Source of the DNA: Spiribacter roseus | GTDB lineage: Bacteria > Pseudomonadota > Gammaproteobacteria > Nitrococcales > Nitrococcaceae | Assembly: GCF_002813635.1 (NCBI RefSeq) | Contig: NZ_CP016382.1 | Coordinates: 1,054,001 to 1,118,000 of the forward strand | Reading direction: 5' to 3' | Length of the DNA stretch: 64,000 nucleotides | In this document: positions 1,090 through 25,255 of the stretch, in pieces | Layout of the letters: every line of letters starts with the position of its first letter | Numbering within the stretch: position 1 is the first letter of the stretch | Notes under the pieces: model-generated | Seen by the model: only the letters and a program-made list of their open reading frames with translations | Database searches by the model: none | Told to the model about the DNA's origin: nothing | Program-made: the position numbers and the translations under genes

Positions 1090-3075
1090 ATGACCATCGA
1101 CCACGCCGATCTCACTAATTGCATCAGCGCCCTGACCATCGATGCGGTGGAAGCCGCCCAGTCCGGCCATCCCGGGGCGCCCATGGGGATGGCCGATGCA
1201 GCCACCGTACTGGCCCGCCGCCATCTCAAGTTCGATGCCTCAGCGCCTCACTGGGCTGATCGCGATCGGCTGGTTCTGTCGAATGGCCACGCCTCGATGC
1301 TCCTCTACGCCCTGCTGCACCTGACCGGAGTCGAGGCGGTTACCCTGGAGGCGTTGCGCAACTTTCGACAGATCGGATCGGCAACGGCAGGACATCCGGA
1401 GTTCGGCCACTTACCGGGTATCGAGACCACCACGGGCCCGCTGGGACAGGGGTTTGCCGCCGCTGTGGGCATGGCGATGACCGAGCGGTTGCTCCGGGCC
1501 GAATTCGGTGAACAGGCGGTGGATCACCACACCTACGTCCTGCTGGGCGATGGTTGCCTGCAGGAGGGCATCGGTCAGGAGGCCCTGTCGCTGGCCGGTC
1601 ACCTGGGGCTTGGCAAACTCATCGTGCTCTACGACGACAACGGCATCACCATTGATGGCCCCACTGACGTCTCTTTTTCGGAAGATGTCCCCGCCCGATT
1701 CGCTGCCTGCGGCTGGCATATCCAGCAATGCGACGGCCACGATCCCGACGCCCTGGATGCCGCCATCGGGGCAGCGCGGGCCAATACCGACAAGCCCTCA
1801 ATGGTGGCCATGAAAACCACCATCGGCTTTGGGGCGCCCACCAAGGCAGGGACCGCGGCCTCGCATGGTGCGCCACTCGGTGCCGAGGAAGCCGCCGGTG
1901 CCAAACACGCACTGGACTGGCATGCTCCGGCGTTCACGATCCCCGCTGAGCTGGCAGCCAAGTGGAAGGCCATCGGCGCCCGTGGGGCCGACGCGCGGCT
2001 GGCCTGGGAACAGCGCATCGATGCAATGCCGCCCGCGCAGCGCCGGGAATTTCTGCGCCGCATGGCCGGCGAGCTCCCGGACGGGTTCGAGCCCGCGTTC
2101 GACAGCGCCCGCCGGGCGCTACTGAGCGCACCGCAGAACGTTGCCACGCGCAAGGCCGGCCAAATGACGCTGGATGCACTGGCCGCCGCTCTTCCCGAAC
2201 TGGTGGGGGGCTCGGCCGACCTGACCGGCTCCAACCTCACCCGCGTCCCGGCGGTCGAACCGCTCTACACCCGCGACGCTCCCGGGCGCTACATTGGCTA
2301 TGGCGTACGGGAGTTTGCGATGGCTGCGGCCATGAACGGCATGGGCAATCATGGTGGCATCATTCCCTACGGGGGCACTTTTCTGGTCTTCTCGGACTAT
2401 GCCCGCAATGCCATCCGCTTGGCTGCATTAATGAAGCAGGGGACCATCTTCGTCATGACCCATGACTCCATCGGGCTGGGTGAGGATGGTCCCACCCATC
2501 AGCCGGTGGAACACCTTGCAGCGCTGCGCGCGATCCCCGGTCTGAATGTCTATCGGCCGGCCGACAGCGTCGAGACGCTGGAGTGCTGGGCGCTTGCGAT
2601 CCGGCATCGCCACGCCCCATCGGTGATTGTCCTATCGCGTCAGGCGACCCCGCAGCTGCGTCACGAGGCGACCAAGAAAAACCCCTGCGAACGCGGGGCC
2701 TACATCATTCGGCGCGTGGGCAGCGGCGACCATCTAGCGCTACTTGCCACCGGAACCGAGGTTGCAATCGCCGTGGCGGCCGCCGAGGTGCTGAGCGCCG
2801 AGCACGGCATTGGTGTTCGAGTGGTGTCCATGCCGTGCTGGGAGCATTTCGAAGACCAGTCGGCCACTGAGCGGGCCGCCGTACTGGGCCAGGCGCCGCG
2901 GCTCGCCATCGAGGCCGCCGGTAAGTTCGGCTGGACCCGCTACGTCGATGACGAGCGCGACGTGATCGGTCTGGACGGTTTTGGCGCATCCGGCCCAGGT
3001 CCGGCACTCTATGAGCACTTCGGGATCACCGCCGATGCCATTATCCAGCGCGCCAGAACGCGCCTTCGCCTCTAA
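1090..3075 (+). CDS. tkt: Transketolase
   Basis: A 661-aa full-length thiamine-diphosphate transketolase that moves two-carbon ketol units between sugar phosphates in the cytoplasm. Visible landmarks are SGHPGAPMGMA (~residue 22), the thiamine-binding GDGCLQEG...DDN motif (~153-185), HGAP (~260), and the pyrimidine-domain signatures GVREFAMAAAMNGM and HDSIGLGEDGPTHQPVEHLA. It begins a plus-strand pair with a transaldolase 19 bp downstream and diverges from eryH. In an erythritol locus it can use the product D-erythrose 4-phosphate with xylulose 5-phosphate to make fructose 6-phosphate and glyceraldehyde 3-phosphate. Whether the genome has another transketolase is not visible. The start is the ATG at 1090; no strong ribosome site was noted upstream. 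Confidence 0.96.
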   Translation: MTIDHADLTNCISALTIDAVEAAQSGHPGAPMGMADAATVLARRHLKFDASAPHWADRDRLVLSNGHASMLLYALLHLTGVEAVTLEALRNFRQIGSATAGHPEFGHLPGIETTTGPLGQGFAAAVGMAMTERLLRAEFGEQAVDHHTYVLLGDGCLQEGIGQEALSLAGHLGLGKLIVLYDDNGITIDGPTDVSFSEDVPARFAACGWHIQQCDGHDPDALDAAIGAARANTDKPSMVAMKTTIGFGAPTKAGTAASHGAPLGAEEAAGAKHALDWHAPAFTIPAELAAKWKAIGARGADARLAWEQRIDAMPPAQRREFLRRMAGELPDGFEPAFDSARRALLSAPQNVATRKAGQMTLDALAAALPELVGGSADLTGSNLTRVPAVEPLYTRDAPGRYIGYGVREFAMAAAMNGMGNHGGIIPYGGTFLVFSDYARNAIRLAALMKQGTIFVMTHDSIGLGEDGPTHQPVEHLAALRAIPGLNVYRPADSVETLECWALAIRHRHAPSVIVLSRQATPQLRHEATKKNPCERGAYIIRRVGSGDHLALLATGTEVAIAVAAAEVLSAEHGIGVRVVSMPCWEHFEDQSATERAAVLGQAPRLAIEAAGKFGWTRYVDDERDVIGLDGFGASGPGPALYEHFGITADAIIQRARTRLRL

Positions 3076-3094
3076 TCATAACGGAGACTGACTG

Positions 3095-3748
3095 ATGAAA
3101 TTCTTTGTTGATACGGCCATTGCCGACGACATCCGCGAACTCAACGACTATGGGCTGCTCGATGGCGTGACCACCAACCCATCGCTGGTCGCCAAATCCG
3201 GGCGCGACTTCAAGGAAGTCGTCGGCGAGATCTGCCAGATTGTCGATGGTCCAGTGTCTGCGGAAGTAGCCGCCATGGACTTTGACGGCATGATGGCGGA
3301 AGGCCGCATCCTGGCGGACATTGCCGATAACGTCGTGGTCAAGCTGCCCCTGACCCTGGAAGGACTCAAGGCCTGCCGGCGTCTGCGTGGCGATGGAATC
3401 CAGACCAACGTAACACTATGCTTTTCGGCCAATCAGGCGCTACTCGCCGCCAAGGCCGGCGCCACCTACATCTCGCCCTTCCTCGGCCGACTCGATGATA
3501 TCCATCTGGATGGCATGGAACTGATCCGCGAGATTCGCGCGATCTACGACAACTACGGCTTCGACACCGAGATCCTCGCGGCATCCATCCGCACCGGCAA
3601 CCATGTCAAGGAAGCGGCGCTCGCCGGCGCCGATGTAGCGACCATTCCGCCGGCGGTGATTCGTGGGCTTGCCCGCCATGTGCTCACCGACAACGGGATC
3701 GATCAGTTCATTCGCGACTGGCAGGCGACCGGGCAGTCGATTCGTTGA
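3095..3748 (+). CDS. tal: TalC/FSA-type transaldolase
   Basis: This 217-aa protein belongs to the short transaldolase family (TalC / fructose-6-phosphate aldolase type, usually 210-220 aa). The Schiff-base lysine is Lys83 in NVVVKLPLT; Asp6 (FVDTA) and Asn28 (TTNPS) are the expected partners, and ILAASIR and VATIPPAV follow. It transfers dihydroxyacetone between sugar phosphates and, paired with the transketolase upstream, would draw D-erythrose 4-phosphate into the pentose phosphate pathway. The ATG at 3095 has CGGAGA upstream. It ends 12 bp before the convergent eryD with no visible hairpin terminator. An aldolase (FSA) rather than transaldolase activity is possible, since the two share this fold. 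Confidence 0.92.
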
Positions 3749-19667: not shown

Positions 19668-19855
19668 GCGCGCACAAAAAAACCGGCCGCAGCCGGTTTC
19701 CTTGATGTCTGGCGCGCCCGGGAGGATTAACTCGGCCCTGCGGGCCTCGTTCCCTCGCGCGCTGCGCTCGGGTCGAACCCATGTTCATTGGCTGGGGCTT
19801 CGAACCCTCCCGGGCGCGCACAAAAAAACCGGCCGCAGCCGGTTTCCTCGATGTC
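19668..19855 (-). repeat. tRNA-Arg tail repeat region: 146-bp unit plus an extra terminator copy
   Basis: Downstream of tRNA-Arg (minus-strand sense) the last 19 nt of the tRNA gene recur at 19710-19728, exactly 146 bp from the genuine copy at 19856-19874. Both tails are followed by the same terminator hairpin (ACCGGC/GCCGGT plus T7). Between them lie two TTCGA-loop, T-arm-like hairpins (around 19771-19780 and 19798-19812), a GCGCAGCG block and TCGGCCCTGCGGGCCTC (plus strand 19732-19748). The same internal blocks recur in the tRNA-Ser repeats at 24808-25165. The arrangement resembles the tyrT repeats of E. coli. No protein is coded here. Confidence 0.85.
19816..19848 (-). terminator. Rho-independent terminator of tRNA-Arg
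   Basis: On the minus strand AAACCGGC-TGC-GGCCGGTTTTTTT follows the tRNA CCA by about 13 bases: a GC-rich stem with a long T-run. A near-identical copy lies at 19670-19702 behind the duplicated tRNA tail. Confidence 0.8.
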
Positions 19856-19932
19856 TGGCGCGCCCGGGAGGATTCGAACCCCCAGCCTCCTGATCCGTAG
19901 TCAGGTGCTCTATCCAGTTGAGCTACAGGCGC
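19856..19932 (-). tRNA. tRNA-Arg (anticodon ACG)
   Basis: The minus strand folds as a 77-nt tRNA. The acceptor GCGCCTG pairs with CGGGCGC, the discriminator is G and CCA is encoded. The anticodon loop is CTACGGA, giving ACG (arginine, CGN family after A34-to-inosine editing; tadA is at 28449). The T loop is GGTTCGAAT. Its own terminator follows, then a duplicated copy of its 3' tail. Confidence 0.96.
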
Positions 19933-24807: not shown

Positions 24808-25165
24808 TGGCGGAGAGGGAGGGATTGATTCGGCCCTCCGGGCCTCACCCTTCGGGCGCATCGCTGCGCGACGCGTCCCAATCGCCTACCGGCGATTGGT
24901 CGAACCCCGTCCGCTTGGCTCCGGGGGCTCGAACCCCAGCACTGCATCAGACACAAAAAAGGGGCCGATGGCCCCTGTTTTATGTCTGGCGGAGAGGGAG
25001 GGATTGATTCGGCCCTCCGGGCCTCACCCTTCGGGCGCATCGCTGCGCGACGCGTCCCAATCGCCTACCGGCGATTGGTCGAACCCCGTCCGCTTGGCTC
25101 CGGGGGCTCGAACCCCAGCACTGCATCAGACACAAAAAAGGGGCCGATGGCCCCTGTTTTATGCT
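24808..25165 (-). repeat. Two tandem 179-bp tRNA-Ser tail repeats
   Basis: Units at 24808-24986 and 24987-25165 are identical by eye except for the final two bases. Each begins (plus strand) with the 19-nt 3' tail of tRNA-Ser (TGGCGGAGAGGGAGGGATT), and the genuine tail follows at 25166, so tails recur every 179 bp. In transcript sense each unit holds a terminator hairpin (GGGGCC/GGCCCC plus T6), two TTCGA-loop elements, a perfect CCAATCGCC/GGCGATTGG hairpin, a GCGCAGCG block, and a GGCCC/GGGCC hairpin three bases before the next tail. The internal blocks match those behind tRNA-Arg. Open frames across the repeats are artefacts of tRNA-like sequence. Confidence 0.92.
25134..25155 (-). terminator. 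Rho-independent terminator of tRNA-Ser
   Basis: Minus strand AGGGGCC-ATC-GGCCCCTTTTTT begins about ten bases after the tRNA CCA. An identical copy occurs 179 bp further downstream at 24955-24976. Confidence 0.85.
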
Positions 25166-25255
25166 TGGCGGAGAGGGAGGGATTCGAACCCCCGGAGCCC
25201 TCTCGGACTCACCGCATTTCGAGTGCGGCGCTTTCGACCACTCAGCCACCTCTCC
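25166..25255 (-). tRNA. tRNA-Ser (anticodon CGA)
   Basis: The minus strand folds as a 90-nt serine tRNA with the long variable arm. The acceptor GGAGAGG pairs with CCTCTCC, the discriminator is G, and CCA is encoded. The anticodon loop CTCGAAA gives CGA (reads UCG), and the T loop is GGTTCGAAT. Its 3' tail is repeated twice downstream. Confidence 0.96.

Follow-up and report, generated by a model that had tools for sequence, protein, structure and literature searches.

For decades, the tandem repeats that follow tRNA-Tyr at the E. coli tyrT locus have been a known curiosity of a single tRNA. The corresponding Rfam family, RtT (RF00391), is described by a 130-nt model that runs from the inverted arm to the tail and carries a cut-off (gathering score) of 45. 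In Thioalkalivibrio versutus and T. nitratis, RtT RNA has been detected by RNA-seq, and its level is reported to rise at 10 °C in T. nitratis and in strain AL2 of T. versutus (PMC8092127).

We analysed a window, by which we mean the whole stretch of 64,000 nucleotides taken from the genome of Spiribacter roseus, in which a sequence-only reading had pointed to a tRNA-Ser(CGA) gene followed by 179-bp tandem repeats, each ending in a copy of the 19-nt 3' tail of the tRNA, and had likened their layout to that of tyrT. Judged by its sequence, this array is a divergent relative of the RtT family and not a scored Rfam member. It belongs to a kind already known, found here in a new lineage and behind several tRNAs. 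Our preferred reading, to which we give a probability of about 0.6, is that the array is a divergent T-loop module of the RtT family, which would be duplicated and lost by recombination between the repeated tails and expressed only by read-through.

The array behind tRNA-Ser(CGA) and its relatives in the genus

The host gene, tRNA-Ser(CGA) with an encoded CCA, lies on the minus strand at positions 25166-25255 (ARAGORN; Rfam RF00005, 61.6 bits). Its residues 58-76, AATCCCTCCCTCTCCGCCA (25166-25184, minus strand; repeat search and border statistics), form the 19-nt tail, of which the repeat search located three copies spaced by 179 and 179 bp. TRF reports at 24808-25184 a period of 179 with 2.1 copies and 98% matches. 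ARAGORN, TRF and the repeat search together confirm the array, which comprises a tRNA-proximal unit 1 (24987-25165) and a distal unit 2 (24808-24986), both of 179 bp and in direct orientation; being at lower coordinates, they are downstream of the minus-strand tRNA gene. The two units are identical at 177 of 179 positions and differ in their last two bases only, as had been read by eye: TC at 24985-24986 against CT at 25164-25165. This near-identity fits the recent copying or homogenisation that had been proposed, and copy number differs among relatives. Each unit scores 105 bits with R1, a covariance model built from 12 non-E. coli cores with a structure set by hand, the core of unit 1 being itself part of the training set.

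In each unit, the terminator directly follows the tRNA or tail copy; the other elements lie behind it, in the order inverted host T-arm, GGTTCGAC, four strongly covarying hairpins and host residues 58-76. In unit 1, the predicted intrinsic terminator, GGGGCCATCGGCCCC TTTTTT (25138-25155; terminator prediction and fold), is enclosed in the fold by a longer dyad with CATAAAACA/TGTTTTATG-like arms. It is followed by an inverted copy of the host variable-arm/T-arm (25096-25116; an inverted repeat with 21-nt arms, 90% complementary), by the core (24997-25086; R1 E = 9e-26, and covariation), which consists of GGGTTCGA, hairpins P1-P4 and then AATCCCTCC, and by the terminal tail copy (24987-25005; TRF and repeat search). 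Unit 2 presents the same succession on the same minus strand, with a predicted terminator at 24959-24976, an inverted copy of the host T-arm at 24917-24937 (inverted repeat), a core at 24818-24907 (R1 E = 9e-26) and a terminal tail copy at 24808-24826 (sequence and repeat search), behind which there is neither a terminator nor an inverted arm. The inverted T-arm is a mirror image of the host T-arm about the terminator. The terminator, TTCGA elements and nine-pair hairpin that the sequence-only reading had ascribed to each unit were all located: the TTCGA elements are the inverted host T-arm and, in direct orientation, half a T-arm, GGGTTCGA, and the nine-pair hairpin is P1, CCAATCGCC/GGCGATTGG.

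No sigma-70-like promoter was found near the array and, since a terminator precedes the core, any RNA from the core would need read-through. Short frames on the tRNA strand of the unit are 22-130 aa long, and none is recognisably tpr (protamine-like). Chance repeats were ruled out by TRF, the repeat search and a whole-genome core search, because the 64-kb window holds no other TRF array of this length and the genome carries the core only behind tRNAs.

A second case in the window, overlooked by the sequence-only reading, lies behind tRNA-Arg(ACG) (19856-19932, minus strand; ARAGORN). Here a single unit, shorter and divergent (19710-19855, minus strand; R1 32.7 bits, E = 9e-6; R2 41.4 bits, E = 5e-7), runs in the order terminator, inverted T-arm, shortened core and 19-nt tail copy (19710-19728), and then comes a second terminator. 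A survey of the tRNA genes of the genome revealed a 19-nt tail copy behind tRNA-Ser(GGA) too, and a truncated unit lies behind tRNA-Ser(TGA). With the covariance model, exactly four cores were found genome-wide, all of them behind these tRNAs, the next match having an E of 0.8. The tRNA-Gln(CTG) gene of S. roseus is followed by a terminator and a decayed inverted arm with no core; in two relatives (G001 and G009), the same tRNA is followed by a unit and then by a second terminator and inverted arm. We also noted an orphan remnant in the S. roseus genome (L051, 663-760; G000:C1, about 713466-713537), made of the last 10 nt of the Ser tail, a terminator and a partial inverted arm, with no tRNA or core, and an orphan in G001 (L295, 708-798, plus strand), made of a core, a Ser(GCT)-type tail and a terminator, with no predicted tRNA gene nearby.

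All 14 genomes of the genus carry cores, from 1 to 9 each by the covariance model, and their host tRNAs are Ser-CGA, Ser-GGA, Ser-TGA, Ser-GCT, Arg-ACG, Arg-CCG and Gln-CTG. A DNA search matched 40 of 40 relatives, partly through the tRNA itself. In G001, G004 and G006 too, the unit behind tRNA-Ser(CGA) adjoins a HAD hydrolase gene, and this common neighbour indicates that the locus is orthologous. Absence of the repeats from this tRNA in close relatives had been named beforehand as a sign of neutral duplication; these three relatives have the unit there.

Core structure, kinship with RtT and fit to the host tRNA

Aligned units of relatives keep a constant core order, namely GGTTCGAC, P1, GRACG, P2, P3 (CCCGAAGGG), YGAG, P4, CGAGT or CGAATC, and AATCC of the tail, in which the core proper spans about 73 nt with four hairpins. 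Among 86 distinct core sequences, 93.1% of the cells are paired and two-sided changes affect 25 of the 28 pairs (593 such cells, as compared with a shuffled mean of 178). These counts lean towards the structure, since the alignment was fitted to it; the covariation signal is gone when partner columns are slid by one to three, and with these slid controls and the diversity of hosts an artefact is improbable. Where a stem cell has Watson-Crick pairs on either side, we counted 19 G-T against 6 A-C, the corresponding controls being 60 to 1 for tRNA and 61 to 5 for terminators. The ratio in the core is between that of tRNA and the strand-blind expectation, and leans to strand-specific pairing. A palindrome acting as DNA only (attC-like or cruciform), an idea prompted by the scarcity of G-T pairs, was not supported by this stricter count. 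Nor is a long closing stem between the tail and an inverted tail within one unit general, because, in the genus, the inverted arm is degenerate over its acceptor part.

R1, which has no E. coli sequence in its training set, matches all four rtT units of E. coli tyrT/tyrV (41-50 bits, E of about 4e-8 to 2e-10). In the other direction, the Rfam RtT model matches four S. roseus units over its full length (1-130) and in register, below the cut-off of 45: the two tRNA-Ser(CGA) units score 26.9 and 26.9 bits, the tRNA-Arg unit 30.5 (E = 0.007) and the tRNA-Ser(GGA) unit 24.1. Elsewhere, the cut-off is passed by units behind tRNA-Ser in Thioalkalivibrio, in an enterobacterial operon of tRNA-Lys and behind tRNA-Pro in E. 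coli. We conclude that the likeness to rtT is homology, since R1 finds rtT while the RtT model aligns in register along its full length here and passes elsewhere; the resemblance to tyrT proposed at the outset is thus correct and deeper than a common layout. Short of the gathering score, the S. roseus units have several traits of the family: they stand directly behind a tRNA and end in its last 19 nt, they have the hairpin core and linkers in common with E. coli rtT (R1, covariation), and they have the tandem period of about 178 bp, here 179 bp in two units. Matches to other Rfam families (sX4, VA, MH_s15 and others) were sub-threshold, and these families were rejected. Sub-threshold sX4 matches were seen over tRNA-Ser and the sequence just behind it (L245, 1054-1225 and 4446-4611, plus strand; L001, 1909-2062, minus strand), and sX4 itself may be a tRNA-Ser-derived RNA.

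Units occur in many Proteobacteria behind Ser, Arg, Gln, Lys, Tyr and Pro tRNAs, E. coli proK included. The earlier remark that the repeats sit on another tRNA in another lineage is true, but this setting is not exceptional. In a survey of 160 units with 12 anticodons, the median period is 179. Among the 151 units whose match was usable, 117 have a tail that agrees with the host over exactly 19 nt (Ser 99, Arg 9, Tyr 4, Lys 3, Gln 2), and the border is T-loop position 58 (standard numbering) for Ser, Arg, Tyr, Lys and Gln. The inverted arm fits its own host better than any of about 40 other tRNA isotypes in 52 of 102 units, where two or three would be expected by chance. Measured from the terminator loop, it lies within 3 nt of the mirror position in 39 of 55 units (permutation 0 of 2000); a plain correlation, spoilt by two outliers, gave a Pearson coefficient of 0.00 and a Spearman coefficient of 0.49. 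This mirror position means that the 3' half of the tRNA, the terminator and the inverted arm form one long palindrome. A terminator precedes the core in 89 of the 160 units, as compared with 3 after shuffling.

Predicted read-through folding, copy number and rival readings

We predicted the folding of read-through RNA for 99 tRNA-unit pairs at equilibrium, co-transcriptional order and tRNA modification being ignored. On these terms, the mean probability of the native acceptor stem falls from 0.96 for the tRNA alone to 0.18 for RNA extending up to the inverted arm and to 0.00 for the whole unit, in which the tail copy is predicted to pair with the 5' acceptor strand at 0.91. Such a takeover by the tail is nearly automatic, given an inverted arm and a second identical tail. 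At least 10 pairs between the tRNA 3' half and downstream sequence are predicted for 75 of 99 unit tRNAs; the controls give 3 of 38 for unit-less tRNAs and 11 of 40 when the spacer is swapped. Relative to the predicted read-through fold, the native one is worse by a median of 6.1 kcal/mol, and by 19.3 kcal/mol for tRNA-Ser(CGA), whose RNA with unit 1 has a z of -8.2. Together with the complementarity to the host, which is kept in five isotypes though the T-loop part is often altered (TTCGAA to GAGAA), the predicted pairing with the inverted arm and the disfavoured native fold speak for a regulatory switch, in which failed termination would let the inverted arm capture the 3' half of the tRNA, so that termination efficiency would set the tRNA yield and the tail copy would serve as a second tRNA-like end. 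We nevertheless hold this switch to be rather unlikely. Real tRNA folds during its synthesis, before the inverted arm is transcribed. At E. coli tyrT, tRNA-Tyr is made although no intrinsic terminator precedes the units, hence the alternative fold is no block there, and zero-unit alleles are common at E. coli proK.

With the covariance model and strict filters, 39 of 150 sampled genomes of the phylum match at E 0.001. A pattern scan yielded, among the matches listed, doubled tRNA-Ser tail loci in many phyla, and units of the same layout were found, again among the matches listed, in Bacteroidota, Verrucomicrobiota, Bacillota and CPR records. R1 matches on those outside Proteobacteria are weak or absent (best E 0.03), so that we claim layout alone there. 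Tandem tRNA-Ser genes account for some of the pattern matches in other phyla (at least 18 loci marked TWO_tRNA) and not for the S. roseus locus. In an IMG/VR contig (L308, 9900-10720, plus strand), a partial tRNA-Ser, the 3' part from the anticodon loop, stands before four units arranged as A-B-A-C; this looks like a prophage junction beside such an array. Some betaproteobacteria have cores far from any tRNA, which makes the tie to tRNAs not absolute, and one betaproteobacterial genome (G049) has at least 29 core copies. Dispersed cores of that genome flank an IS110-family transposase gene (L236, 1473-1545 and 1861-2904 on the minus strand and 3022-3104 on the plus strand; also L237 and L238). 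Dispersed cores that lack a tRNA, some beside such a transposase gene, indicate that the core can spread as DNA.

The near-identity of these dispersed copies, the patchy distribution over the phylum, the gain or loss of units behind Gln and Arg-CCG tRNAs inside the genus and the sharp border at T-loop position 58, like that of tRNA-targeting integrases, would all suit a non-autonomous mobile element, whose REP/MITE-like core would prefer T-loop sequence, capture its tRNA parts from the host and give RNA as a by-product. This too is unlikely in our view: no enzyme or dedicated recombinase inserting units into the T-loop was identified, nearly all cores of the S. roseus genome and genus remain behind tRNAs, the unit at tRNA-Ser persists at an orthologous place, and the excess of G-T over A-C in the stems leans to strand-specific pairing.

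Copy number varies by whole periods within one species. E. coli K-12 MG1655 has one unit at proK (tRNA-Pro CGG), unannotated in RefSeq (L306, 159-240, minus strand; NC_000913.3, about 3708458-3708539), while the O157 strain EC4115 has zero there and differs from K-12 by exactly one 168-bp period. Other E. coli strains label the proK unit 'processed from tyrT transcript' despite the different tRNA. At a coverage of at least 80% of the proK query, the place is found in 2699 of 5426 E. coli genomes; RtT places number 1-14 per genome with a median of 3, and 715 genomes have no match at the threshold used. By their sequence, these copy-number changes are consistent with identical tails and terminators recombining with one another. 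The variation, zero-unit alleles included, implies that a given array is dispensable. Such polymorphism, along with degenerate copies, remnants and no known phenotype in hand, might also be left by a functionless tandem duplication maintained by gene conversion, which we judge quite improbable in view of the covariation seen at 25 of the 28 pairs across many families, the conserved linkers and the presence of cores throughout the genus. Partial 3' duplications of tRNA genes are the usual mark of integration (PMC9897764), yet remnants of attachment sites of prophages or islands integrated at tRNA-Ser are a highly improbable source of the array and are refuted as a general cause by the structured core common to unrelated tRNAs, the period being fixed (median 179), with 160 bp and no coding gene between the tail copies and no integrase or island among them.

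The proposed module and its place among known systems

The divergent RtT-family module takes up what can be read from the DNA itself. This comprises the order of parts in the unit, a tail and an inverted arm that are specific to the host, hairpins that covary, the recurrence at the same tRNA in relatives and the whole-period changes in copy number. In such a module, the unit would split the tRNA sequence within the T-loop, at the junction of residues 57 and 58, and the host tRNA would still be complete because the unit supplies its own residues 58-76 and a terminator; behind the terminator would come the inverted host T-arm, the half T-arm, the four hairpins and the displaced tail. Most transcripts would probably end at the terminator and yield normal tRNA. 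A minority may read through and be processed at the tails into an RtT-like RNA. In the read-through RNA, as folding predicts, the 3' half of the tRNA would pair with the inverted arm and the distal tail would close the acceptor stem, the predicted product being a long tRNA-ended RNA. Units would multiply and vanish via recombination between identical tails and terminators. That they form a T-loop insertion module with a tail switch, by which a single gene yields an ordinary tRNA in one case and a long tRNA-ended RNA in the other, and which the cell uses at several tRNA species, is a bolder proposal that we regard as distinctly doubtful.

In the openly available papers that were searched, we found no description of the general module with its T-loop border, mirrored host-fitted arm and predicted tail takeover. 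The units now appear as a general module with a fixed T-loop border, a host-fitted inverted arm and natural zero-unit alleles at E. coli proK, and existing strains of one species allow tRNA and RNA output to be compared with and without the unit.

Four described systems bear comparison with the array. The tRNA 3'-end duplications of integrative elements likewise comprise a partial 3' tRNA copy with a T-loop border; the units differ from them by the lack of an integrase, the fixed 179-bp period and the common structured core. REPs of the GTAG and CGTC superfamilies are also short palindromic extragenic repeats, tandem or dimeric, and the core is dispersed in some genomes. REPs are single hairpins of 20-40 bp with a GTAG or CGTC tag (PMC3733652), whereas the unit combines four hairpins with a tRNA tail and an inverted T-arm; identity with GTAG/CGTC REPs was rejected for a core of about 73 nt with four hairpins. 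The Thioalkalivibrio tRNA-Ser units (L123, L134 and L138) have the same host tRNA and anatomy and are likely from the same bacterial order, and differ in their hairpin sequences and in their higher RtT scores, which pass the cut-off. One of these loci, L134, is that of T. versutus AL 2; there, at about 1147-1275 on the minus strand, the T-loop of tRNA-Ser(UGA) is directly interrupted by the core, and an intact tRNA copy follows.

Lastly, the array differs from RtT of E. coli by its host, tRNA-Ser, by its divergent sequence (24-31 bits against the cut-off of 45), perhaps by the lack of a tpr-like frame, none having been recognised, and by the loop of the inverted arm, TTCGA as against GAGAA in the tyrT repeats. 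A terminator between tRNA and core is present in S. roseus and at E. coli proK and absent at tyrT. The array and RtT of E. coli (tyrT-tyrV/rttR) nevertheless agree in the order of their elements, the period of 178/179 bp, the border at the last 19 nt, the tandem copies, the inverted T-arm and the core itself, GGTTCGAC...hairpins...GAGT-AATCC.
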